From: an uncultured Clostridia bacterium
Lineage (GTDB): Bacteria; Bacillota; Clostridia; Oscillospirales; Ruminococcaceae
DNA: 51,468 nucleotides
Assembly: GCA_947623585.1 (NCBI GenBank)
Contig: CANQHA010000015.1
Location: 1-51,468 of the forward strand
Direction of reading: 5' to 3'
Shown piece by piece: positions 6,308 through 48,268 of the stretch. Below the pieces are notes generated by a model. That model did not search any database and was not told where the DNA came from. It was given only the letters and a program-made list of their open reading frames with translations. The position numbers were made by a program, and so were the translations under genes. How positions within the stretch are numbered: position 1 is the first letter of the stretch; each line of letters starts with the position of its first letter.

Positions 6308-7003
6308 TTATTCGGTCACATTTTCGGCGATTTTAACAATTTCATCCTCGTCAAGCTGTCCGCTGAGGCTGAAAACATAGCTGCCGTCATACCAGACCGC
6401 ATAGCTCCACCTGTCGTATTCGTCTCCGGAAATATAGAGGTAATAGGTCCTTTTGCCGACGGTTTTTTCAATGTATTCCCTGTCGTTGGGATAAACCGAA
6501 AGCTCGCACTTCGCCGCGATTCCGTACTGAAATTCGATGAGGTCGCCGGCGTAGTTTTTATAGCTCAGAAGCATAAGAAAGTCGTCGTAATCTATTCTGC
6601 GCAGCTTATAGCCCTCGGGGAGATAGCCGAGGCGCTTCTGGTCGTCGATCTCGCCGTCAAAGCCGCCCTGATAGGAATATTCGTCATGATCCGAAAGCAC
6701 CTCTCTGATGACGACCCCGACCGCGGCATGGATCTTAGGTTGAGAAAGAAGTAGCGCAAAGCACACCCCGAGCACCGAGGCCGCCGTGACCGCTCCCGTT
6801 GCGACGACCTTTGCGGCGCTTTTTAAAGCCTCTTTTCTTCCGACCGAGCGCTTTATTCTTTTCAGCCTTTTCTCAAAGCCCTCCGAGAAGCTGTGGGCCT
6901 CGCCGCCCTCGAAGGAGGAAAGCTCGTTTTCGCAGTCCTCGATGAGCGCTTCTCTCAAAAAATCATCCCAGAGGCGTTCGTTCGCCCTCTCACTGAATCT
7001 CAT
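6308..7003 (-). CDS. Membrane-anchored anti-sigma factor with DUF4367-like outer domain
   Basis: 231 residues from the ATG at 7003, placed 6 nt after GAGGAGG; a TTG five codons earlier is inside the Shine-Dalgarno and is rejected. Residues 1-70 are cytoplasmic and helical, the expected sigma-binding part. One membrane helix follows (about residues 75-97, VVATGAVTAASVLGVCFALL). The outer C-terminal domain (GYLPEGYKLRRIDYDDF..., a two-strand YxxxG-type repeat) is typical of DUF4367/RsgI-like sensors. The gene overlaps the sigma factor stop by 14 nt, the usual sigma/anti-sigma arrangement. It probably holds the sigma factor inactive until an envelope or substrate signal arrives. Confidence 0.85.
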   Translation of the reverse strand: MRFSERANERLWDDFLREALIEDCENELSSFEGGEAHSFSEGFEKRLKRIKRSVGRKEALKSAAKVVATGAVTAASVLGVCFALLLSQPKIHAAVGVVIREVLSDHDEYSYQGGFDGEIDDQKRLGYLPEGYKLRRIDYDDFLMLLSYKNYAGDLIEFQYGIAAKCELSVYPNDREYIEKTVGKRTYYLYISGDEYDRWSYAVWYDGSYVFSLSGQLDEDEIVKIAENVTE

Positions 7004-7541
7004 AGCCCGCCTCCTCAAGTTTTTTGCGAAGAAAAGCCTTTGCGCGATATATCCTCATCTGTGCGTTTTTCTCGCTTATGCCCAAAAGCTCCGCTATCTC
7101 GGCGCTGCTGAAGCCGTAGATATATCTCAGCTTGAGCGCGTCGCCGTATATTTTGTCGAGCGAGGATATCATCTCGGCGACCTGCCCCGCGCCGTTATAT
7201 ATCACCTCGCCGATATCCGGCATTTTAAGGCTTTGCGGGGCCGCGATGTTTTCGTCAAAGGGCGTTGCCGAGGGGTTCTCCTTGCGGAGAATGTCTATCG
7301 CGGTATTTCTCACTATAATAACGATAAAAGAGGCGGATTTACTACAAACAGGTTCGGAAAACCGTGAAATATTTTTTGCAATCTTCAAAAAGCTCTCCTG
7401 AACCGCCTCCTCGGCAAGAGAAGCGCTGTGAAGCACCGACATCGCGACCCGAAACATCAGCTCTTTATAAGCGCCGTATATTTCGGCGAATTTTTCCTTG
7501 TCGCTCGGCGAATCTATCATCGCAAGATACAGTGCGAGCAT
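6990..7541 (-). CDS. ECF-type RNA polymerase sigma factor
   Basis: 183 residues from the ATG at 7541; AAGGAG lies 8 nt upstream, whereas the GTG three codons earlier overlaps that site. Region 2 (about residues 15-85) includes AEEAVQESFLKIAKNISRF and TAIDILRK, the -10 recognition helices. Region 4 (about residues 118-175) has the helix-turn-helix YIYGFSSAEIAELLGISEKN followed by a basic recognition helix. The gene is the second of an eight-gene operon and precedes its anti-sigma factor. It most likely drives this operon and perhaps others; no duplicated non-sigma-A promoter was recognised here. Confidence 0.9.
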   Translation of the reverse strand: MLALYLAMIDSPSDKEKFAEIYGAYKELMFRVAMSVLHSASLAEEAVQESFLKIAKNISRFSEPVCSKSASFIVIIVRNTAIDILRKENPSATPFDENIAAPQSLKMPDIGEVIYNGAGQVAEMISSLDKIYGDALKLRYIYGFSSAEIAELLGISEKNAQMRIYRAKAFLRKKLEEAGYEIQ

Positions 7542-8694: not shown

Positions 8695-10677
8695 ATGAGA
8701 TTTGAAATACGCGACGGAGCGCTTCTTTGCTATAATAACGGCGAAACGCTCAGAATTGAAGCGTGGGGAAAGGATTCTTTGCGCGTCAGGGCGACGATGC
8801 TTTCGCAGTTCACCCAAAACGATTGGGCGCTCACCGAAAAGCCCGCCCCCACAAAAGCCGAGGTCAACGCCGAAAACGGCGTCGGCTCGATCTCAAACGG
8901 CAGAATAAAGGCGACCGTAAACTTTGCGGGCGTGATTTCTTTCTATAAAGACGGCGGCCTCATTCTAAGAGAATACTTTCGCTCATACGGCGGAACGCTT
9001 TCAAAGAGCAGCCGTTGCTTAAAGATCGTCAACCGCGAATGGAAGGGCGTTTTCGGCGGAACCGAATATTCCCTCAACGTCAAATTCGACCCCAACCCCG
9101 GCGAAAAGATATTCGGAATGGGTCAGTATCAGGACGGCTGCCTTGACCTTAAAGGCTGCGGGCTCGAGCTTGCTCAGCGAAACTCTCAGATATCGGTGCC
9201 GTTTGCCGTCTCGTCTTTGGGCTACGGCTTTCTGTGGAACAACCCCGCCGTCGGAAAAGTCACCTTCGGCAACAACTATACCGAATGGATCGCCCGCTCG
9301 ACCCGCGAAATGGATTATTACATAACCGTTGCCGACACGCCGAAGCAGATAATCGAAAATTACACCTCGGCGACCGGCCGCGCCGATATGTTCCCCGAGG
9401 ATCTCATGGGTCTTTGGCAGTGCAAGTTAAGATACAGAACTCAGGAGGAGGTCCTTGAAGTCGCCCGCCGCTATAAAAAAGAGGGCATAAAGATCGATCA
9501 GATAGTCATCGACTTCTTCCACTGGACTGTTCAGGGCGACTGGAAATTCGACAAAAAATATTGGCCCGACCCGAAAGCCATGGTCGACGAGCTTCACAGC
9601 ATGGGAATAAAGGTCATCGTCTCGGTCTGGCCGTCGGTAGACAGAAAAAGCGAGAATTTCTATCCCATGACCGAAAAGGGGCTTCTGATAAAAACCGAGC
9701 GCGGCGCCGCTCAGACCTATGACTATCAGGGCGACTGCGTTGAGATCGACCCGTTCAATCCCGAGACGAGAAAATACGTCTGGGAGGTCTGCAAGAGAAA
9801 TTACTACGACTACGGCATCGACGCTTTTTGGCTCGACAATTCCGAGCCCGACTACGGCGTCTATGACTTCGAGAACTATCGCTACTTCGCGGGTCCCGCG
9901 CTTGAGGTCAGCAATATGTATCCTCAGATGTACAGCCGCGTTTTCTATGACGAGATGAAAAAAGCCGGAAAGCCGGTCGTCAATCTTTTGAGATGCGCTT
10001 GGGCGGGCTCTCAGAAATTCGGAAACGTCGTCTGGTCGGGAGACGTGCCCTCGACCTTCGAGGCTTTCCGCGACCAGCTCAAATGCGGTCTGAATATGGG
10101 CCTTGCGGGAATTCCTTGGTGGACGACAGACATCGGCGGCTTTATGACCGACGACGTGAACGACCCCGACTTCAGGCAGCTTCTGATTCGGTGGTATCAG
10201 TTCGCGGTCTATTCCGCGGTGCTTCGTATGCACGGCGACAGGGGACCTTACGACATTCCGCCGCTTGACGACCGCGATTGGGGCGGAGGATATCTGCACA
10301 CCGGCCAGCCCAACGAGCTTTGGAGCTATGGCGATGAAAACTATAAGATAATGCGGCATTATTACGATATCCGCGTTTCGATGCACGATTACATCAAGGG
10401 GCTTTATGAGCAGGCTCACGAAAACGGCTCGCCGCTTATCCGCACGATGTTCTATGAATTCCCAAGCGATGAAAAGTGCTGGCAGCTCGACGATCAGTAT
10501 ATGTTCGGCGAAAAATATCTCGTCGCGCCGATATTCGAGCTCAATAAGACCGAGCGCGAGGTATATCTTCCCGAGGGAAGCTGGACGCTGACCTCTACCG
10601 GCGAAAAATTCGAGGGCGGAAAAACCGTTTCCGTCGCCGCGCCGATAGAATATATGCCCGTTTTTGAAAGAAATTGA
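8695..10677 (+). CDS. Glycoside hydrolase family 31 (alpha-xylosidase/alpha-glucosidase)
   Basis: 660 residues from the ATG at 8695, which follows AGGAGG by 8 nt; an earlier in-frame Met overlaps the promoter -10 and is rejected. An N-terminal beta-sandwich (about 1-230) precedes a TIM barrel (about 235-570) and a beta-sheet tail. The GH31 nucleophile is D381 in FWLDNSEPDYG and the acid/base is D450 in WSGDVPSTFEAF. The arrangement DFFHWTVQGDWKFD (about 273-286) is typical of the YicI/alpha-xylosidase branch. No signal peptide, so cytoplasmic. It would hydrolyse alpha-linked oligosaccharides, possibly those brought in by the divergent ABC transporter. A terminator follows at 10682. Confidence 0.92.
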   Translation: MRFEIRDGALLCYNNGETLRIEAWGKDSLRVRATMLSQFTQNDWALTEKPAPTKAEVNAENGVGSISNGRIKATVNFAGVISFYKDGGLILREYFRSYGGTLSKSSRCLKIVNREWKGVFGGTEYSLNVKFDPNPGEKIFGMGQYQDGCLDLKGCGLELAQRNSQISVPFAVSSLGYGFLWNNPAVGKVTFGNNYTEWIARSTREMDYYITVADTPKQIIENYTSATGRADMFPEDLMGLWQCKLRYRTQEEVLEVARRYKKEGIKIDQIVIDFFHWTVQGDWKFDKKYWPDPKAMVDELHSMGIKVIVSVWPSVDRKSENFYPMTEKGLLIKTERGAAQTYDYQGDCVEIDPFNPETRKYVWEVCKRNYYDYGIDAFWLDNSEPDYGVYDFENYRYFAGPALEVSNMYPQMYSRVFYDEMKKAGKPVVNLLRCAWAGSQKFGNVVWSGDVPSTFEAFRDQLKCGLNMGLAGIPWWTTDIGGFMTDDVNDPDFRQLLIRWYQFAVYSAVLRMHGDRGPYDIPPLDDRDWGGGYLHTGQPNELWSYGDENYKIMRHYYDIRVSMHDYIKGLYEQAHENGSPLIRTMFYEFPSDEKCWQLDDQYMFGEKYLVAPIFELNKTEREVYLPEGSWTLTSTGEKFEGGKTVSVAAPIEYMPVFERN

Positions 10678-10681
10678 GCTT

Positions 10682-10722
10682 AAAAAATCCCCCCTCGGGC
10701 TTTTTCGAGGGGGATTTATTTT
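10682..10722 (+). terminator. Terminator after the GH31 gene
   Basis: AAAATCCCCCCTCG pairs with CGAGGGGGATTT around a GGGCTTTTT loop, followed by ATTTTA. Confidence 0.85.
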
Positions 10723-14031: not shown

Positions 14032-14255
14032 AAAAGGTATTCATCTTCCCCATGCGCGAGGGGAAGATGAATGCTATCGTTTATCACCCCACCCCCGCTA
14101 TACTGCCTGCGGAGAGGAAAGATATCGAAGCCCCCGCCCCTCAAGGGGCGGGGGCTTTGCTTTGTTACCTTTTAGACAAACGTACTGCGGGGGTGGGGTG
14201 ACTTAAAATAGCATGAAATCTTGCCCTCGTGAGAGGGAAAGATTGAATACCTTTT
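14032..14255. repeat. Nested-palindrome element with AAAAGGTATTC ends, copy 1
   Basis: Terminal inverted repeats AAAAGGTATTC (14032) and GAATACCTTTT (to 14255). Left end hairpin TCATCTTCCCC/GGGGAAGATGA (14041-14070). Middle arms CACCCCACCCCCGC (14085-14098) and GCGGGGGTGGGGTG (14187-14200). Centre GCCCCCGCCCC-TCAA-GGGGCGGGGGC (14130-14155). Right end hairpin around CCCTC-GTGA-GAGGG (14224-14237). No transposase gene; the form is that of a miniature inverted-repeat element. Confidence 0.85.
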
Positions 14256-14434
14256 CTTCCTCTGCGCTATGTCACTGAACGCTCCATGCGCACAAAAGCC
14301 CCGCAGGGGCGCCTCGCACAGAAGCGGGTTTTGTCCAAGAGAACGAGCCGCCGATTCGGCATGGCGGCGAAGTTCGATTGGTTACAAAACCCGCTTATGT
14401 TGTCCTCGGCAGAGGGAATGATTGAATACCTTTT
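14256..14434. repeat. HP2 + HP1 module of the composite element, copy 1
   Basis: Directly joined to the nested palindrome. It contains HP2 (near 14291-14322) and the 75-bp hairpin HP1 (14322-14396; arms AAGCGGGTTTTGT and ACAAAACCCGCTT), and ends in GATTGAATACCTTTT like the neighbouring element. With 14032-14255 it makes a 403-bp composite that is the mirror image of 29514-29914. Confidence 0.85.
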
Positions 14435-14533
14435 ATTCGCTCATGTGCCGCCGGAGCAAAAGCAAAACTTTCATGCCTTGCACAACTTTTCGGGCGCTTT
14501 GAGTGCAGGTTTTTCATACTATCGCGCCTACGC

Positions 14534-17658: not shown

Positions 17659-17757
17659 AGCGCTGTTTTGCGGGTTGGATAAGAGGGGGCGGCGCGCATG
17701 ACAAGCCGTCGGCTTGCGGAGCTTAACGCAACGTTCTGCGGAATTGGGCAGCCGCTT

Positions 17758-17986
17758 AAAAGGTATTCAATCTTTCCATCTCACGATGTAAAGATTTCAT
17801 ACTATTTTGAGCCACCCCACCCCCGCAGGACGTTTGTCGTATAGGAACAAATGAAGAGGCCCCCGCCCCTCGAGGGGCGGGGGCTATCAAAACTTTCCTT
17901 TCGTAGGCAGTAAGGCGGGGGTGGGGTGATGAGCGATAGCATTCGCTAAAATTCCGCCCCGGGGCGGAATTTTGCGAATACCTTTT
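17758..17986. repeat. Nested-palindrome element with AAAAGGTATTC ends, copy 2
   Basis: Ends AAAAGGTATTC (17758) and GAATACCTTTT (to 17986). Middle arms 17813-17826 and 17915-17928 (CACCCCACCCCCGC and its complement). Centre 17859-17884 is a 26-bp palindrome around CTCGAG. The right end hairpin has its own stem, ATTCCGCCCC/GGGGCGGAAT (17951-17970), different from copies 1 and 3 yet self-complementary. Confidence 0.85.
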
Positions 17987-18063
17987 AAACGGTCGGTTCG
18001 GGCTGCGGCAAAGGTAGAGATAAAGCTACAAACGTTTAGGCTGCGTTTGCGGCGGCTGAGCAA

Positions 18064-18296
18064 AAGTAATTCAATCTCTCCTCTTACGCTGGCAACATAA
18101 GCGGGTTTTGCAGCCAATCGAACTTCGCCGCCATGCCGAACCGGCGGCTCGTTCTCTTGGACAAAACCCGCTTCTGTGGAACAACGCCCCGTAGGAGCGT
18201 TGTTCGCATGGAGCGTTAAGTAACATAGCGAACGGGGGTGGGGTGATGAGCGATAGCATCCATATTTTCCGGCGAAGGAAAATATGGATACCTTTT
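18064..18296. repeat. Composite element, internally deleted copy (HP1 + HP2 joined to half a nested palindrome)
   Basis: Starts AAAAGTAATTCAATC, holds HP1 (18099-18173, arms AAGCGGGTTTTG/CAAAACCCGCTT) and HP2 (18178-18210), then jumps to CGGGGGTGGGGTGATGAG (18230-18247) and the end hairpin CCATATTTTCC/GGAAAATATGG, finishing GGATACCTTTT. The central palindrome and left arm are missing. Further HP2 fragments follow to about 18355. Confidence 0.82.
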
Positions 18297-18400
18297 CATC
18301 AGCGCTGTGTCCCCTAACGCTCCATGTGCAGAAAGCCCCGCTCATGCTGCCCTGGGCAGAGGGGCGGCGATGTTTTTCCTCACTATTATGCCACCAGCAC

Positions 18401-29513: not shown

Positions 29514-29691
29514 AAAGGTATTCAATCTTTCCATCTCACGAGTTCAACAGAAGCGGGTTTTGTAGCCAATCGAACTTCGTCGCCATGCCGAATCGGCGGC
29601 TCGTTCTCTTGGACAAAACCCGCTTCTGTGGCACAAATCCCCTGCGGGGCTTTGTGCGCATGGAGCGTTTAGGGACATAGTGCAGAAGAAG
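29514..29691. repeat. HP1 + HP2 module of the composite element, copy 3
   Basis: Begins AAAGGTATTCAATC. HP1 is 29551-29625 (75 bp, arms AAGCGGGTTTTGT/ACAAAACCCGCTT, inner pairs CCAA/TTGG, GAAC/GTTC, CGCC/GGCG). HP2 is 29630-29660 (GCACAAA..TTTGTGC). Orientation is the reverse of the 14 kb copy. Confidence 0.85.
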
Positions 29692-29914
29692 AAAAGGAAT
29701 TCAATCGCTCCCTCTGCCGAGGGAGTGATTTCATACTATTTTGAGACACCCCACCCCCGCAGGACGTTTGTCTAAAAGGTAGCAAAGCGAACGCCCCCGC
29801 CCCTCGAGGGGCGGGGACTTCGATATATTTCCTGCCCGCAGGCAGTATGGCGGGGGTGGGGTGACTCCCAATAGCATCCATATTTTCCGGCGGAGGAAAA
29901 TATGGATACCTTTT
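29692..29914. repeat. Nested-palindrome element with AAAAGG ends, copy 3
   Basis: Begins AAAAGGAATTC, ends GGATACCTTTT. Middle arms 29747-29760 and 29850-29863. Centre 29795-29816 is a 22-bp perfect palindrome around CTCGAG. End hairpins CTCCCTC/GAGGGAG-like on the left (29707-29726) and CCATATTTTCC/GGAAAATATGG on the right. The segment 29915-30040 holds only a short family-C remnant (about 29962-30002). Confidence 0.85.
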
Positions 29915-39091: not shown

Positions 39092-39212
39092 AGTCACATA
39101 GCCTTTCAGATTATTTTATTACAGTATAGCACATTTTTGCCGCTTTGGGAAGTGGGAAAACGAAATTCATTAAATTTTGACAAAGGGACTACACAAACGC
39201 GATTTTTTGTGC

Positions 39213-39218
39213 TATAAT
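39213..39218 (+). promoter_or_regulatory. -10 box upstream of dus
   Basis: TATAAT at 39213-39218; the nearest TTGACA (39177-39182) is 30 bp away, too far for a normal promoter, and the position 17 bp upstream (39190-39195) is weak. If used, the leader before dus would be about 330 nt and contain the cloverleaf element. Confidence 0.45.
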
Positions 39219-39380
39219 AGTACGCGGTATGTTTTTGACCGAAACTTTTGCGCAATTAAAGGCGTTCTGCGGGTCTTCGGTCTGAGACCCCGAGCGGGCG
39301 GGAAGTCTTCGCTCCCCGAGGCGCGGCGGCTTAAAAAAGCGGCGCGAGGAAACTTTTGCCTGTCGCCCGACAGAGCCGGG

Positions 39381-39472
39381 GGGCGCCGCCCCCGGGGCGC
39401 GAAGCGCCCCGCGCCCCGCAAGGCTTCGCCTTGCGGGAGCCCCCCCCGCTGCGCGGGGGGCGGGCGGCGCCC
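39381..39472. repeat. GC-rich cloverleaf (four-way junction) element, copy in the dus leader
   Basis: An outer 11-bp stem GGGCGCCGCCC (39381-39391) / GGGCGGCGCCC (39462-39472) encloses three hairpins: GGGGCGC-GAA-GCGCCCC (39394-39410), CCCGCAAGGC-TTC-GCCTTGCGGG (39415-39437) and CCCCCCGC-TGC-GCGGGGGG (39442-39460). The same plan with different stems is at 43042-43125. Flanks 39240-39380 and 39473-39551 show no further gene. Confidence 0.8.
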
Positions 39473-39551
39473 GCACTTTTTGCCCGCCGCGCCGAAAGCT
39501 ACGAACGCCGGCCTGCTTCGGGCGGGCGGCAGGCGCCATGCAGAGGAGAAA

Positions 39552-40529
39552 ATGAAAAGTACAGCTATCGGAAATGTCAAAATAGAAAAGACCTGCGCGC
39601 TCAGCCCGATGGCTTCCGTCGCAGACAGGGCTTATCGCGAGATCTGCCGCGAATTCGGCGCGTCATATCTTTGCAGCGAAATGGTCTCGGCGAAGGGCCT
39701 TTGTTACGGCGGAGCAGGTTCACTCGAGCTTTGCGAGGTCTTAGATTCCGAGCGCCCCTATGCGATCCAGCTTTTCGGCGAAGAGCCGGAATTCATGGCA
39801 AAGGCGGTAAATATAGTTAATCGCTTTAAGCCCGATATCATAGACATAAACATGGGCTGCCCGGTCGCAAAGGTCGTAAACCCCGGGGGCGGCAGCGCTT
39901 TGATGAAAACGCCCGAGCTTGCCTGCCGGCTTATCCGTGCGGCGGTCTCGGTCGCTGAATGTCCGGTGACGGTGAAGATACGCTCGGGGTGGGACGACGC
40001 TCACATCAACGCGGTCGAATTCTCTTTGGCGGCAGAGTCTGCGGGAGCGGCGGCTATTGCCGTTCACCCGAGGACCCGCGCCCAGATGTACGGCGGAAAA
40101 GCCGACCGCAGGGTTATTGCGGCGGTGAAAAAGGCGGTGTCGGTGCCGGTCATCGGAAACGGAGACATCGCCTGCGGAGCCGACGCCGAAAGAATGTATA
40201 ACGAGACCGGCTGCGACCTTGTTTCGCTCGCAAGGGCTTCAAACGGCAGACCTTGGGTCTTTCATGAGATAAAGCATTTTTTGGAGACCGGCGAGAGCCT
40301 GCCCGAGCCGCCGCTTGAAAAACGGCTCGAAATAATGCTGCGCCACGTCGATCTTCTGATCGAATACAAGGGCGAGGCTCAGGGCGTTCGCGAGGCCCGA
40401 AAAAACGTCGCTTGGTATTTAAAGGGCGTTCGCGGAGCCGCAAAATACAGAAATCTTTCCGGAAGCCTAAATACCCGGGACGATGTTTTAAGGCTTTCCG
40501 AGGAGGTGTTAAAAAATGCCTCTTTATGA
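39552..40529 (+). CDS. dus: tRNA-dihydrouridine synthase
   Basis: 325 residues from the ATG at 39552, 5 nt after GAGGAG; the frame stays open further upstream but runs through the cloverleaf element. FMN-binding TIM barrel with the catalytic Cys in INMGCPVAKVVNPGGGSALM (about residue 105) and the FMN phosphate site in VIGNGDI and SLARASNGRPW. It reduces a uridine in tRNA to dihydrouridine. C-terminal helical domain binds tRNA. First gene of an operon with trmN6-like, PNPOx-like, rsmI, rimI and tsaD genes; the next gene starts inside its 3' end (14-nt overlap). Confidence 0.94.
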   Translation: MKSTAIGNVKIEKTCALSPMASVADRAYREICREFGASYLCSEMVSAKGLCYGGAGSLELCEVLDSERPYAIQLFGEEPEFMAKAVNIVNRFKPDIIDINMGCPVAKVVNPGGGSALMKTPELACRLIRAAVSVAECPVTVKIRSGWDDAHINAVEFSLAAESAGAAAIAVHPRTRAQMYGGKADRRVIAAVKKAVSVPVIGNGDIACGADAERMYNETGCDLVSLARASNGRPWVFHEIKHFLETGESLPEPPLEKRLEIMLRHVDLLIEYKGEAQGVREARKNVAWYLKGVRGAAKYRNLSGSLNTRDDVLRLSEEVLKNASL

Positions 40530-41244
40530 CGGCGTTACGGTCGAAGACCTCGGCAAAGGCTTTAAATGCGCAGTCTCAAAAGAGCACCGCTTCGGCACCG
40601 ACGCGTTTTTGCTCGCAGATTTCGCCTCTCCGCGCCGAAAGGACAGCTGCCTCGACCTCTGCGGCGGAAACGGCATAGTCGGGCTGCTTCTGCTTCGCAA
40701 TTTCGGGGCTTCTCGGGTCGTTTCGGTCGAGCTTCAGAAAAAGGCTCACGACCTTGCGCTTCTTTCAAAGCAGCTTTCAAACGCCGAGGATTTTTTGCCC
40801 TTAAACGAAGACCTGCGGGCTTTTCGGACCGAGCGGCAGTTCGACGTTATCACCTGCAACCCGCCCTATAAGCGCGAGGGAACGGGCGCCGCTCCGAGCG
40901 AAAGCGCCGAGGCGATAGCCCGTCAGGAGCTTAGCTGCTCGATATTCGACGTCTGCGAGGCCGCAAAGAGAAATCTTCGCTTCGGCGGAAGGCTTTGTAT
41001 CTGCAACCGCCCCGAGCGCCTTGCCGACTGCGTTTTTGCGATGCGCCGCTTCGGGATCGAGCCGAAACGCCTCAGAACCGTTCACAAAAACACTTCTTCG
41101 CCGGCGTGGCTGATACTTCTTGAAGGCAGGCTCGGCGGCTCGGGCTTTATGAAGATCGAGCCCCCGCTTGCGGTCTATGACGGGGGCGGCGAGCTTTCCT
41201 CCGAGATGAAAAGGATATACAGGTTTGACCAAGGGGCTGATTGA
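40516..41244 (+). CDS. tRNA1(Val) adenine-37 N6-methyltransferase-like protein (TrmN6)
   Basis: 242 residues. SAM-binding motif I is DLCGGNGIVGLLLL (about 51-64) and the amino-methyltransferase motif IV is NPPYKREG (about 115-122), the combination used for adenine N6 methylation. The family (YfiC/TrmN6) modifies A37 of tRNA-Val; that exact substrate is assumed from family. It overlaps the end of dus by 14 nt and is followed at once by the PNPOx-like gene. Cytoplasmic. Confidence 0.88.
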   Translation: MPLYDGVTVEDLGKGFKCAVSKEHRFGTDAFLLADFASPRRKDSCLDLCGGNGIVGLLLLRNFGASRVVSVELQKKAHDLALLSKQLSNAEDFLPLNEDLRAFRTERQFDVITCNPPYKREGTGAAPSESAEAIARQELSCSIFDVCEAAKRNLRFGGRLCICNRPERLADCVFAMRRFGIEPKRLRTVHKNTSSPAWLILLEGRLGGSGFMKIEPPLAVYDGGGELSSEMKRIYRFDQGAD

Positions 41245-42581: not shown

Positions 42582-43025
42582 ATGGGCATAATAAGAAAAA
42601 TGACCGCGGAGGACATCGACGGCGTGTTAAAAATCGAGCGCGCCTGCTTCACCGCCGAGGCGTGGCCCCGAGGGGATTTTGAGGCGCTTGCCGGTGAGGA
42701 AAGCGGCGTAATCGCCTCGCTTGTGTATATCGTTGACGGAAAGGTCGGCGGGTATATCTCGGGCAGCTGCATTTGCGGCGAGCTTGAGATCTATTCCGTC
42801 GCGGTGGACCCGTCTTTAAGGCGAAAGGGCGTCGCAAGGGCGCTTATCGGCGAGCTTGAAAGGCTTGAAAAGCCGGCGACCGCCTTTTTGGAGGTCAGAG
42901 AGTCGAATTCTGCGGCGAGAAGCCTTTATACCTCGCTCGGGTTTTGGGAATTCGGCAGGAGAGCGGGATATTACAGCCGCCCCGACGAGGACGCGATCAC
43001 GATGAAAAAGGAATACAAAGACTAA
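42582..43025 (+). CDS. rimI: Ribosomal-protein-alanine N-acetyltransferase RimI
   Basis: 147 residues, GNAT fold. The acetyl-CoA loop is VDPSLRRKGVARALIGELE (about 70-88) and the substrate-side motif LEVRESNSAARSLYTSLGF is the classic RimI C-terminal signature. It acetylates the N-terminal Ala of ribosomal protein bS18 and often lies next to tsaD, as here. It starts 2 nt after rsmI. A cloverleaf GC element lies in the 129-bp gap before tsaD. Confidence 0.93.
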   Translation: MGIIRKMTAEDIDGVLKIERACFTAEAWPRGDFEALAGEESGVIASLVYIVDGKVGGYISGSCICGELEIYSVAVDPSLRRKGVARALIGELERLEKPATAFLEVRESNSAARSLYTSLGFWEFGRRAGYYSRPDEDAITMKKEYKD

Positions 43026-43041: not shown

Positions 43042-43125
43042 GGCGAAGCCCCGGACCGCGAAGCGGTCCGCCGCGCCGCTTCGCGGCGCGGCCGGCGGGG
43101 CCTTGCCCCGCCGGGGGGCTTCGCC
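43042..43125. repeat. GC-rich cloverleaf element, copy between rimI and tsaD
   Basis: Outer 11-bp stem GGCGAAGCCCC (43042-43052) / GGGGCTTCGCC (43115-43125) enclosing GGACCGC-GAA-GCGGTCC (43053-43069), GCCGCGCCGC-TTC-GCGGCGCGGC (43070-43092) and CGGCGGGGC-CTT-GCCCCGCCG (43093-43113). A separate CCTGCG-CAGC-CGCAGG hairpin (43028-43043) sits just before. It lies inside the operon, so it is transcribed. Confidence 0.82.
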
Positions 43126-43154: not shown

Positions 43155-44189
43155 ATGAAAATTTTAGCGATCGAATCATCCTGCGACGAGACGGCGGCGG
43201 CTGTCGTCGAAAACGGCAGAACGGTGCTTTCAAACATCGTCGCCTCGCAGATCGACGAGCACCGGCTTTACGGCGGGGTCGTTCCCGAGATAGCCTCTCG
43301 CCGCCACGTTGAGAGCATAAGCGGCGTCGTCGGCGAAGCGCTTTCGGCGGCGGGCTGCACGCTTTACGGCATAGACGCCGTCGCGGTGACCTATGCCCCC
43401 GGGCTGATAGGCGCGCTTCTTGTCGGGGTCAGCTATGCCAAGGGGCTTTCGATGTATACCGGAAAGCCGCTCGTGCCGGTGCATCACATCGCGGGGCACA
43501 TCGCCGCGAACTATATAACCCACCCCGAGCTTGAACCGCCGTTTTTGTGCCTCGTCGTCAGCGGCGGGCACAGCCACATCGTTTGGGTCGAAAGCTATAC
43601 CGAATATAAGGTGATAGGCAGGACCCGCGACGACGCCGCCGGAGAGTGCTTCGACAAGGTGGCGAGGGTTTTGGGCTATCCTTATCCCGGGGGAAAATAT
43701 ATCGACGAGGCCGCGAAAAAATGCTCGAAAACGGCTTTTAAATTCCCTCACCCAAAGGTCTCGGGCGGAGAATTCGACCTCAGCTTTTCGGGGCTTAAAA
43801 CCGCTGTGATAAACCTTGTTCACAATTCCCGGCAGCGGGGAGAGGAGCTTTCGCGCGAGGATGTTGCGGCGTCTTTTCAGAAGACCGTTTCCGACATTTT
43901 GGGAGAAAAGACCGAGGCCGCCGCAAAAAGCCTCGGCTGCAAAAAAATAGTCGTCGCCGGAGGGGTCTCGGCAAATTCGGGAGTTCGGGCGAAGATGAAA
44001 AAGGTAAGCGATTCTCTCGGCGCGGAGCTTTTTATGCCCGAGCTGCGCTATTGCGGAGACAACGCCGCTATGATAGGCGCTCAGGGATATTACGACTTTT
44101 TGGCGGGAAGAAGGGCGGACGAAAGCCTCAACGCCGTCGCGACCCTTTCTCTTGAAGACATAAGCATGAAAACGGAGGACCGAAAATGA
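43155..44189 (+). CDS. tsaD: tRNA N6-adenosine threonylcarbamoyltransferase TsaD
   Basis: 344 residues, ASKHA ATPase fold. The start ESSCDETAAAVVENG is diagnostic. Metal-binding histidines are in HHIAGHIAANY (H-x3-H); SGGHSHI and VVAGGVSANSGVR follow. With TsaB, TsaC and TsaE it forms t6A at position 37 of ANN-decoding tRNAs; TsaB and TsaE are not in this window, which is unusual because they often sit beside rimI-tsaD. The ATG lies 4-10 nt after GAGGAAG, right after the cloverleaf element. Its stop overlaps the next start (ATGA). Confidence 0.97.
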   Translation: MKILAIESSCDETAAAVVENGRTVLSNIVASQIDEHRLYGGVVPEIASRRHVESISGVVGEALSAAGCTLYGIDAVAVTYAPGLIGALLVGVSYAKGLSMYTGKPLVPVHHIAGHIAANYITHPELEPPFLCLVVSGGHSHIVWVESYTEYKVIGRTRDDAAGECFDKVARVLGYPYPGGKYIDEAAKKCSKTAFKFPHPKVSGGEFDLSFSGLKTAVINLVHNSRQRGEELSREDVAASFQKTVSDILGEKTEAAAKSLGCKKIVVAGGVSANSGVRAKMKKVSDSLGAELFMPELRYCGDNAAMIGAQGYYDFLAGRRADESLNAVATLSLEDISMKTEDRK

Positions 44190-46588: not shown

Positions 46589-48268
46589 ATGAACTTTAAG
46601 CGCCTGGCGGCATTTCTTCTTGCCGCGCTGATCCTTGTCTCGACTCTTGCGGCGTGCGGGCAGGTATCGGACGAGCCCCTTAACCCGCCCGAAAACTCTT
46701 CCGAACCCGTGGTGACGCTTCCGCCCGAGACGACCCCCGAGCCGGTCACCACTCCCGAGCCGACGACAACGCCCGAGCCGGTCACCACCCCCGAGCCGAC
46801 GACTACGCCCGAGCCGGTCACTACCACCGAGCCGACGACTTCGGAATCAAACCCCGATGATTTCACCGTTGAGGAAATGAGCGCAACGATGTATGCGACT
46901 ATATCCCTTAACGTCAGAAGCGGCCCCTCGACCGATTTCGACAGAGTTGGCGCGCTTGCCGAGGGCGAAGCGGTAACCGTTACCGGACGCGCCTCTACCG
47001 GCTGGTACAGAATAGAATTCAACGGCAAAGAGGGCTATGTCAGCAACGTCTATATGACCTCGGACCGCCCCGCGCAGACCCCCGCCACCACCGCTTCCAA
47101 GCCGAAGACCGATGACGACGAGGAAAACGTTGACGACGATAATCACGGCGCGGCACCGACCGTTCCCTCGACCGTTCCCTCCACCACACCGACGAGCGGC
47201 ACCGTTTCGGCGGGCGACTGGGTAGCCGAGAACGGCGTAGCCTATATGTACGGTCTCTTCACGCAGGACAGATATAAAAACGCCCTCAACGCGCTCGGCA
47301 AGGCCGTTCAGAACCTTGAACCCCGAGTAGACCTCGGCGATTATCTCTCGGCGCAGGAGTGCATGGACTTCGCTTCTTACATCGCCGAGATGGCCGGCAC
47401 CGGCTATTGCTACTTCGACCAGATCTCCTCGCTTTCCGGCACCGTCGCCACGCTCAGATATTATGCTTCGAGCGCCGACGAGGCGAAAAAGATGGTTTCA
47501 AGTCTCAACAGCGTTGCTGACAAGGTCGTGAACACCGTCAGCGGATACTCGGACTATAACAAGATAAAATACATCTATGAATATGTTGCTAAAAACTGCC
47601 GCTATGACGACGCGGGCCCGCACTACGCTTCGGGCTACGGCGCCCTTGTTGACGGCAGAGCCACCTGCATGGGATATGCAAAGGCCGCGTTCTATCTGCT
47701 TTCAAAGGCGGGCCTCGACGTTGTTTACGAGGTCGGCTTCGGCACCGAGGCCGAGCATATCTGGGTAAAGGTCAAGCTCGGCGGAAGCTGGTATTGCGTC
47801 GATCCCGGATGGGCGGACCCGCAGCCCTCGAACAACCTCGACCCGAGCTATGTAAGCTATGACTTCCTGCTCGTAAGCGACGATTTCATGAAAAACACCC
47901 GCGCGGCGGTTTATGACCTCTCGAAATACTATACCACCCCGAGAGCGAACTCCGACAGTTACAGCTGGTATAACGTCAACAACTGCTATGCCACGAGCAT
48001 GGCCGAGGCGAAGCAGATACTCAAGGCCGCAACTCAGGACGCCGTCAACAACGCCGGCGGCAAGGAATACATCTACGTCAGAATCCAGTTCAGCACGCTC
48101 AGCCTGTTAAGAGAAGCGTATGAGCACTACTCTCACAGCACCTATACGAGCGAGATACTCTCGCAGGTCACATCTAAGTACAAGAGCAACTCAAGGCTCA
48201 CCGACCAGATGAACGAGACCGACCTTAAAAAGACGAGAAGCCTCGTATTCAGGCTCAAGAAGAACTGA
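46589..48268 (+). CDS. SH3b plus transglutaminase-like lipoprotein with Thr-Pro-Glu repeats
   Basis: 559 residues. Signal MNFKRLAAFLLAALILVSTLAAC, lipobox LAAC. Residues about 45-85 are repeats TTPEPVTTPEPT (36-bp DNA repeat, about three copies), a wall-spanning spacer. A bacterial SH3 domain spans about 97-155 (SLNVRSGPSTDFDRVGALA, GYVSNVYM). The transglutaminase core has Cys360 (RATCMGYAKAAFYLL), His390 (AEHIWVKV) and Asp405 (CVDPGWADP). Related to the preceding gene; both end in terminator 48274. SH3b domains usually bind peptidoglycan, so its place is the wall. Confidence 0.9.
   Translation: MNFKRLAAFLLAALILVSTLAACGQVSDEPLNPPENSSEPVVTLPPETTPEPVTTPEPTTTPEPVTTPEPTTTPEPVTTTEPTTSESNPDDFTVEEMSATMYATISLNVRSGPSTDFDRVGALAEGEAVTVTGRASTGWYRIEFNGKEGYVSNVYMTSDRPAQTPATTASKPKTDDDEENVDDDNHGAAPTVPSTVPSTTPTSGTVSAGDWVAENGVAYMYGLFTQDRYKNALNALGKAVQNLEPRVDLGDYLSAQECMDFASYIAEMAGTGYCYFDQISSLSGTVATLRYYASSADEAKKMVSSLNSVADKVVNTVSGYSDYNKIKYIYEYVAKNCRYDDAGPHYASGYGALVDGRATCMGYAKAAFYLLSKAGLDVVYEVGFGTEAEHIWVKVKLGGSWYCVDPGWADPQPSNNLDPSYVSYDFLLVSDDFMKNTRAAVYDLSKYYTTPRANSDSYSWYNVNNCYATSMAEAKQILKAATQDAVNNAGGKEYIYVRIQFSTLSLLREAYEHYSHSTYTSEILSQVTSKYKSNSRLTDQMNETDLKKTRSLVFRLKKN

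Follow-up and report, generated by a model that had tools for sequence, protein, structure and literature searches.

A GC-rich cloverleaf lies in the leader of dusB on a contig of an uncultured Clostridia bacterium, and a second one, built on the same plan of an outer stem around three hairpins, lies downstream between rimI and tsaD. The stem sequences of the two are unrelated, as a preliminary description of this DNA had noted. What kind of element keeps its shape and not its sequence? The preliminary description saw in the pair either strong selection on a four-way junction or a replication mechanism that rewrites stems. The DNA analyzed is a 51-kb stretch of 51,468 nucleotides (the window), which belongs to a genome of 2.07 Mb in 43 contigs (G000). 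We consider it likely that the pair are members of a lineage-restricted, shape-defined, non-coding interspersed repeat, probably mobile, that acts at the DNA level.

Folding reproduced the coordinates of both elements, which are foldable on either strand. The features concerned are the following.

39190–39218, plus strand: promoter-like site with extended −10, 10 of 12 matches, upstream of the dus leader
39320–39329: left arm, GGCGCGGCGG, of the outermost inverted repeat around the dus-leader element; 10 bp, partner 39484–39493
39381–39472: dus-leader cloverleaf, outer stem 39381–39391/39462–39472; RNA and DNA folds, covariance-model match
39393–39411: arm 1 of the dus-leader cloverleaf, loop GAA at 39401–39403
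39413–39440: arm 2, loop TTC at 39425–39427
39442–39460: arm 3, loop TGC at 39450–39452
39484–39493: right arm, CCGCCGCGCC, of the outermost inverted repeat
39552–40529, plus strand: dusB, tRNA dihydrouridine synthase; NCBIfam TIGR00737, 358.5 bits against a cut-off of 293.3
42582–43025, plus strand: rimI, S18-alanine N-acetyltransferase, 5′ neighbor of the second element; TIGR01575, 96.9 bits against a cut-off of 86.4
43042–43125: second cloverleaf, at the rimI-tsaD junction, outer stem 43042–43052/43115–43125, GGCGAAGCCCC...GGGGCTTCGCC; RNA and DNA folds
43053–43069, 43070–43092 and 43093–43113: arms 1, 2 and 3 of the second cloverleaf
43155–44189, plus strand: tsaD, 3′ neighbor of the second element; TIGR03723, 430.3 bits against a cut-off of 296.1

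In the minimum-energy fold of the dus-leader element, an 11 bp outer stem encloses hairpins of 8, 10 (with 2 more beyond a bulge) and 8 bp, whose loops are GAA, TTC and TGC. The outer stem and the loops are those first described, but the first hairpin has one base pair more than the 7 given there. The second element folds just as described, with an 11 bp outer stem, hairpins of 7, 10 and 9 bp, and loops GAA, TTC and CTT. On the plus strand, the RNA fold of the dus-leader element reaches −84.1 kcal/mol (z −5.59) and that of the second −80.8 kcal/mol (z −7.67), and none of 200 dinucleotide shuffles attains these energies. DNA parameters give z scores of −5.65 and −7.96, respectively, with similar values for the opposite strand. 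Both elements thus fold far better than shuffled sequence, and the proposed structures stand in this respect. A cloverleaf scanner, which looks for an outer stem and three consecutive hairpins, finds these two elements and no third in the window, and none in five window shuffles; its false-positive rate is 1 in 1430 shuffled elements.

The outer stem of the dus-leader copy is GGGCGCCGCCC, which departs from the usual family ends. An 8 bp version of its outermost inverted repeat is found at similar distances around the dus-leader copies of two relatives, L032 and L033. As the promoter-like site lies upstream, the element is probably transcribed within the dus 5′ UTR, in a leader of about 330 nt; three promoter-like sites were found in this region, against 1.3 expected.

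Three further features of the window may be recorded here. A second, longer interspersed repeat occurs in both orientations (1–132, 14064–14438, 17732–18339 and 29514–29914) and has palindromes of its own: GCCCCCGCCCCTCGAGGGGCGGGGGC; CGGGGGTGGGGTGA...ATAGCAT; and ATCCATATTTTCC...GGAAAATATGGAT. Five repeat copies with 18 bp spacing (46729–46839) lie in the 5′ part of a predicted gene (46589–48268), where they encode a Thr/Pro/Glu-rich linker. Inside the dus operon, the gene at 41225–41743 matches the NimABCDEF 5-nitroimidazole reductase family at 172.5 bits, below the curated cut-off of 260, and has no match at that position in L032, L033, L035 or L036.

The dus region in relatives

The gene order dusB-trmN-(nim)-rsmI-rimI-tsaD-btuF is conserved in those of the loci L029–L036 that are long enough to show it. 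The sites of the elements within it are as follows.

dus leader: own genome, L032, L033
trmN-nim: L029, L030
trmN-rsmI: L032, L033, L036
after rsmI, at the contig end: L031
rimI-tsaD: own genome, L029, L035
after btuF: L035

All 13 elements of the region lie outside mapped genes, that of L031 being at the contig end. The gene map was used for this purpose after an ORF-overlap test had been abandoned, since long stop-free frames occur in GC-rich DNA; that test placed 41 of 97 elements inside ORFs of at least 150 aa, including the dus copy, the overlapping ORF of which is the upstream-extended dus frame.

Does the dus-leader cloverleaf sense tRNA or modification state and control the operon as a cis-regulatory RNA? 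The element follows a promoter-like site and lies in the leader of about 330 nt, L032 and L033 carry elements in their own dus leaders, and the stems covary (see below). We nevertheless regard this reading as highly improbable. In L029, a nearly identical promoter precedes dusB, followed by a short leader, some tens of bases long, that contains no element; therefore, the element has no obligatory role for dusB. L034 has no element from polA to the start of rimI, and other copies are found at many unrelated junctions. The coding-strand loops of the 13 elements comprise 13 GNA, 14 TNC and 12 others, i.e., no strand preference, an outcome not expected of loops that function in RNA. The trmN-rsmI element of L032 is inverted relative to those of L033 and L036, between the same genes. 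The family differs in these varying positions, and in the inversion, from known Rfam RNAs, riboswitches and T-boxes, and a search of window segment 38900–43400 with the Rfam covariance models, at a limit of E 1, gave no match. Nor do the elements behave as tRNAs: ARAGORN calls four tRNAs in the window, all located elsewhere than the cloverleaves, and none in L001, L134 or L227. A riboswitch or tRNA-sensing leader was accordingly rejected. A role as a regulator of dus or of tRNA modification is unlikely because the sites differ between species and a relative's dus leader is without the element. The link first drawn to an operon of tRNA/ribosome modification genes is not supported either, given the varied junctions in relatives, a further element between phoU and a phoB-like gene, and dozens of additional sites in the own genome.

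What happens at a fixed site? Among 66 element pairs of the dus region, the five most similar in their arms are all same-junction pairs from different species. It follows that elements can persist long at one site, changing slowly, and the complete sequence turnover read from the window pair fails there. The L029 counterpart of the rimI-tsaD copy at 43042–43125, for example, shows one compensated pair in arm 1 and an identical arm 2 core. Some same-junction pairs are unlike, namely own/L032 in the dus leader and own/L035 at rimI-tsaD. The dissimilarity of the two copies in the window reflects their origin in different sub-lineages and not a rewriting of one sequence.

Two side observations concern these loci. 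In L032 and L033, at about 7001–7215, a partial dusB start (start codon and first codons) follows the leader cloverleaf; the full gene lies about 195 bases further downstream. In the rimI-tsaD gap of L030 (about 10616–10700), a family-type outer stem, GGGCGAAGCCC...GGGGCTTCGCCCC, encloses an interior that is not three hairpins and is scanner-negative; it is a rearranged or decayed copy.

Members and range of the family

To speak of a distant twin is misleading, for the two are members of a set of at least 34 three-hairpin elements in the own genome. With the dus element and its near flanks as query, partial matches are found at several places in G000, and these places hold complete cloverleaves with different stem sequences. 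The family plan is one of about 75–100 bp, with an outer stem that is usually GGCGNAGCC...GGCTNCGCC enclosing three hairpins. This outer-stem pattern has 29 matches in G000, and a reversed-pattern control has one. In the G000 stretches examined, the scanner finds 34 distinct elements, i.e., all 29 pattern places and five more that are without the pattern (the dus-leader copy and four others). Eleven copies form a subfamily with arms 1 and 3 in common and a variable middle arm, and most of them are embedded in a longer mosaic repeat. Pieces of the longer window repeat flank most of the own-genome cloverleaf subfamily.

Many further members were found in relatives, so that the second refuting test named in the preliminary description, like that of folding energy, does not refute it. 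In a genus scan with a stricter pattern, 17 of 31 genomes match; the maximum is 204 (G027), followed by 125 (G020), and controls are 0 each. On visual inspection, the matches listed for G006 (4) and G016 (2) do not resemble cloverleaves, and those of G021–G029 enter as counts. In a set of 12 genomes of named relatives, which overlaps the genus set in part (e.g., G039 is G017), 10 match at 4–77 places, with controls of 0–2; the two most distant have none. The nearest named relatives are rabbit-gut assemblies labeled ‘uncultured Clostridia bacterium’.

An order-wide sample places limits on the family. Of 394 genomes, 10 match. The scanner was applied to one locus from each of the nine besides the own genome, and it finds cloverleaves in G022 and G025, of the same genus, and in G109, G178 and G314, of a sister genus in the same family; it finds none at the matching loci of G048, G060, G089 and G397. 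Further stretches of G314 hold five elements across four loci. At the loci scanned, cloverleaves are thus restricted to this genus and one sister genus. A covariance-model scan of 197 genomes matched at least two and was not used for counts. Carriage by phages or plasmids was considered and rejected: 12 viral contigs match the pattern, with no cloverleaf found by the scanner at those 12 loci, and plasmids show no match to the second window copy, the only query used.

Pairing, loops and inversions

Covariance model R1, built from three elements of another species (G020), matches 43042–43125 on both strands (E 7.7e-7 and 4.1e-5) and 39381–39472 on one (E 0.0025), with nothing else in the window at E 0.01. 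It finds 22 further elements in the other 38 sources and, at E 0.01, misses 4 of the 11 elements of L029–L036 (that of L030, the dus-leader copies of L032 and L033, and the second of L035). In the R1-based alignment, in which many elements are represented by both strands and which was fitted to the structure, 98.4% of cells are paired versus 64.4% in shuffles, and two-sided changes occur at 37 of 42 pairs versus 29.4. Its covariation score of 0.657 compares with 0.128 for shuffled alignments and no more than 0.085 for slid ones.

A copy between phoU and phoB allows the constraint to be examined at a single site, with better control than the alignment offers. It is common to G000, G020, G022, G025 and G037, and the surrounding DNA is 91.5–93.7% identical; PstB and PhoU of the locus score above curated cut-offs, and the best match of the regulator is PhoB, below its cut-off. 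In the five species, 0 of 56 arm-stem sites vary, versus 30 of 180 sites in the flanks (90 bases each side; Fisher p 3e-4), the flank rate predicting about nine. The outer stem varies at 2 of 25 sites and the loops at 5 of 9, and the sole junction base is also variable. Together with the covariation, this argues for selection on the structure, the first of the two explanations originally offered.

As a separate matter, this pstB-phoU-phoB region is 91.5–93.7% identical among the genomes of L134, L144, L226, L227 and L228, despite the DusB of one sharer of the region (the genome of L035) being only 74% identical to the own DusB, which hints at interspecies exchange of the region.

Could the elements be host architectural sites, i.e., supercoil-absorbing cruciforms, terminators or insulators that are selected in place and spread by recombination? 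The constraint on the phoU-phoB arms, the junction-specific similarity and the placement of the 13 dus-region elements outside mapped genes would all suit such sites. We think it unlikely, as copy number runs from 0 to 204 within one genus and positions differ between species. Terminators in particular are not enriched, with six terminator-like sites in window segment 39000–43300 versus 7.5 by chance, two of which overlap the right outer arm of the dus copy.

The loops favor a function at the DNA level. The set of 143 elements was limited to those accepted by the scanner, with three hairpins and no more than one mismatch in each, which biases its pairing statistics upward. In it, 358 of 429 loops are triloops, of which 311 are GNA or TNC (7.9% expected from composition) and 348 are closed by C-G. 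The preference is not unique to the family, since at least 34 of 61 non-element hairpins in the own-genome DNA examined also have GNA or TNC loops. As DNA, d(GCGNAGC) mini-hairpins are extraordinarily stable, with a Tm of 78 °C for GCGAAGC (PMC4686876, in excerpt), and they share with the cloverleaf arms GNA loops on G-C stems. The excerpt treats oligonucleotide chemistry; the cloverleaves, in contrast, are a repeat family in which a GNA loop on one strand faces TNC on the opposite one, and both orientations occur.

Loops also flip. Two G037 copies differ solely in the middle loop (TTC versus GAA), the phoU-phoB copy of G022 has its first loop flipped from TTC to GAA, and the trmN-nim elements of L029 and L030 have their arms in common but the first loop flipped, with two compensated pairs in arm 2. 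Within genomes, 27 spanning-forest comparisons of close pairs yield 6 exact loop flips, and loop bases change at roughly seven times the rate of stem bases (39 of 250). In these young pairs, one-sided stem changes number 28 versus 6 compensated pairs; therefore, intermediates exist and are presumably weeded out. The stem-rewriting mechanism suggested at the outset thus finds partial support: flips occur in loops and in one entire element, but one-sided changes prevail in the stems of young pairs.

Template switching characteristically inverts loops and perfects stems (PMC8794818, in excerpt), and both would be predicted if the elements were mere mutational by-products, GC-rich inverted repeats perfected by template switching with neither mobility nor selection. 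We give this explanation hardly any credence. The three-arm plan and conserved outer ends recur, near-identical units stand at unrelated sites, the phoU-phoB arm stems are invariant where about nine changes are predicted, and one-sided changes exceed compensated ones in young pairs.

Dispersal and proposed mode of action

The preferred reading, that of a probably mobile repeat, draws on junctions that hold an element in some relatives and none in others, and on the copies of G017. Nine of the G017 copies, 73–75 bp long, are 91–100% identical in same-length pairs, and their flanks are unrelated (mean identity 0.33 left and 0.28 right); therefore, the spreading unit in that genome is the cloverleaf itself. 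They differ at the hairpin tips, by loop changes and a one-base-pair change of stem length, and by one compensated pair. Tandem and clustered copies are seen in G027 and G020. Many copies of the own genome and of G037 lie within longer repeats, in some cases with additional inverted repeats, so units other than the bare cloverleaf also exist. Terminal inverted repeats are present in the form of the outer stem, GGCGNAGCC...GGCTNCGCC. Direct repeats at the flanks are not clear: the mean score is 1.92 versus 1.67 (sd 0.15) when flanks are re-paired, and 13 of 140 elements score 5 or more.

Two candidate boundary features were discarded. A general outer inverted repeat is weak in the own genome (7.18 versus 6.42, sd 0.32) and absent in G017, G020 and G027. 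The tag CC[AG]AGGCGC lies beside 5 of 34 own elements and 3 of 13 in relatives (background 0.5%); it is merely local, as it accompanies 0 of 96 elements in G017, G020 and G027.

Duplications that carry cloverleaves are found in L158 (5806–6548) and L168 (6942–7599). In L168, the flanks look duplicated and the second element of each unit has, by eye, unrelated arms, as if the element had been replaced. A T-box leader (RF00230, 99.3 bits) at 6696–6925 of L158 is unconnected with the elements.

Which enzyme might move such a unit? Two transposase families were sought, Y1 (PF01797) and IS110 (PF01548). IS110 is above cut-off in 5 of 31 genomes, without relation to copy number and with no match in G027, the richest, and it was dismissed as a partner. 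Y1 matches, some of them fragments, occur in 8 of the 31 genus genomes. They occur more often where copies number five or more (6 of 12 genomes versus 2 of 19; one-sided hypergeometric p about 0.02, calculated by hand), which keeps the Y1 idea alive. The elements could then be REP/REPIN- or IS200/IS605-type non-autonomous elements moved by a hairpin-recognizing Y1 (TnpA_REP) transposase. As short, palindromic, high-copy intergenic repeats they suit this type, and so does the lack of a clear target-site duplication, which single-strand transposition is not known to leave. We hold this origin to be unlikely. PF01797 has no match in the own genome, G026 or G028 (25, 18 and 73 copies) and, of the 12 genomes that have at least five copies, 6 (the own included) are without it; six Y1 loci examined contain no cloverleaf; and GTAG/CGTC lies within 12 nt of the stem in 4 and 10 of 140 elements, versus 7 and 8 in control zones.

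The elements resemble REP, MITE and mitochondrial hairpin elements; the defining REP features tested are lacking, and of those of MITEs only the terminal inverted repeats are present. REP, BIME and REPIN sequences are short palindromic intergenic repeats with many copies, complementary stem changes and short loops (PMC3733652, in excerpt), and the cloverleaves are like them in each of these points, the stem changes being between members. A REP is one stem-loop of 20–50 nt that comes with a GTAG/CGTC tag and with a Y1 transposase (PMC8266576, in excerpt). Membership would also call for a family-conserved stem and a TnpA_REP gene flanked by the repeats. The cloverleaf family, in contrast, encloses three arms within its outer stem, and most of its copies have unrelated stem sequences; it shows no tag, no consistent transposase and no copies at the six Y1 loci. 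Bacterial MITEs have direct repeats, are typically AT-rich and derive mostly from insertion sequences (PMC10969869, in excerpt). The cloverleaves are likewise short and non-coding with terminal inverted repeats, but they are GC-rich, with direct repeats not clear and no parent among the two transposase families sought.

The intergenic hairpins of mitochondria (those of Allomyces, the sponge RHE and LIMP) are alike in kind. They differ in being organellar and consisting of single or double hairpins or a pentanucleotide-repeat palindrome, whereas the cloverleaves are bacterial chromosomal elements with a closed three-arm form. The Allomyces elements are said to be without flanking duplications (PMC2800124, in excerpt), and the loops of LIMP, from the algal mitochondrion of Lobosphaera, occur in both orientations about equally (PMC4524435, in excerpt), as do those of the cloverleaves. 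In the open-access literature, to which the search was confined, no description of a bacterial cloverleaf repeat family was found.

We infer that the element functions at the level of DNA, although transcribed copies could act as RNA. The existence of the family, its copy number, the dispersal of the bare unit in one genome, the covarying pairing constraint, and the flips of loops and of a whole element are demonstrated by the comparisons above. The following scheme is suggested. When the DNA is single-stranded or supercoiled, one strand may fold back, or both may extrude a cruciform. A putative trans-acting enzyme would recognize the folded form together with its ends, irrespective of the sequence of the stems, and would copy or move the element into intergenic sites. 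During replication across the fold, a polymerase template switch at the hairpin tips could flip or alter loops and invert arms or the whole element, and stems that lose pairing would be removed by selection or repair. The dus-leader copy would then be an insertion in a probably transcribed leader, with no dus-specific role indicated.

Most known mobile DNA is recognized through a conserved end sequence. A bolder version of the proposal, which we offer tentatively and as a possibility, is that of mobile DNA recognized by shape only: the enzyme would act on the four-way junction with GNA-capped arms, stems would be free to turn over as long as they stay paired, and copying would rewrite the tips. 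If this is so, the tip-limited variation of the nine G017 copies would be the footprint of tip rewriting.

In these genomes, single cloverleaf leaders should not be taken for riboswitches. A family that keeps its folded plan while varying its stems between copies, maintaining their pairing within each copy and flipping its loops, is a natural experiment on the copying, cutting and repair of folded DNA. In this one system it could be tested whether bacteria keep palindromes perfect by template switching or by hairpin processing, and whether transposition machinery can select its substrate by shape.
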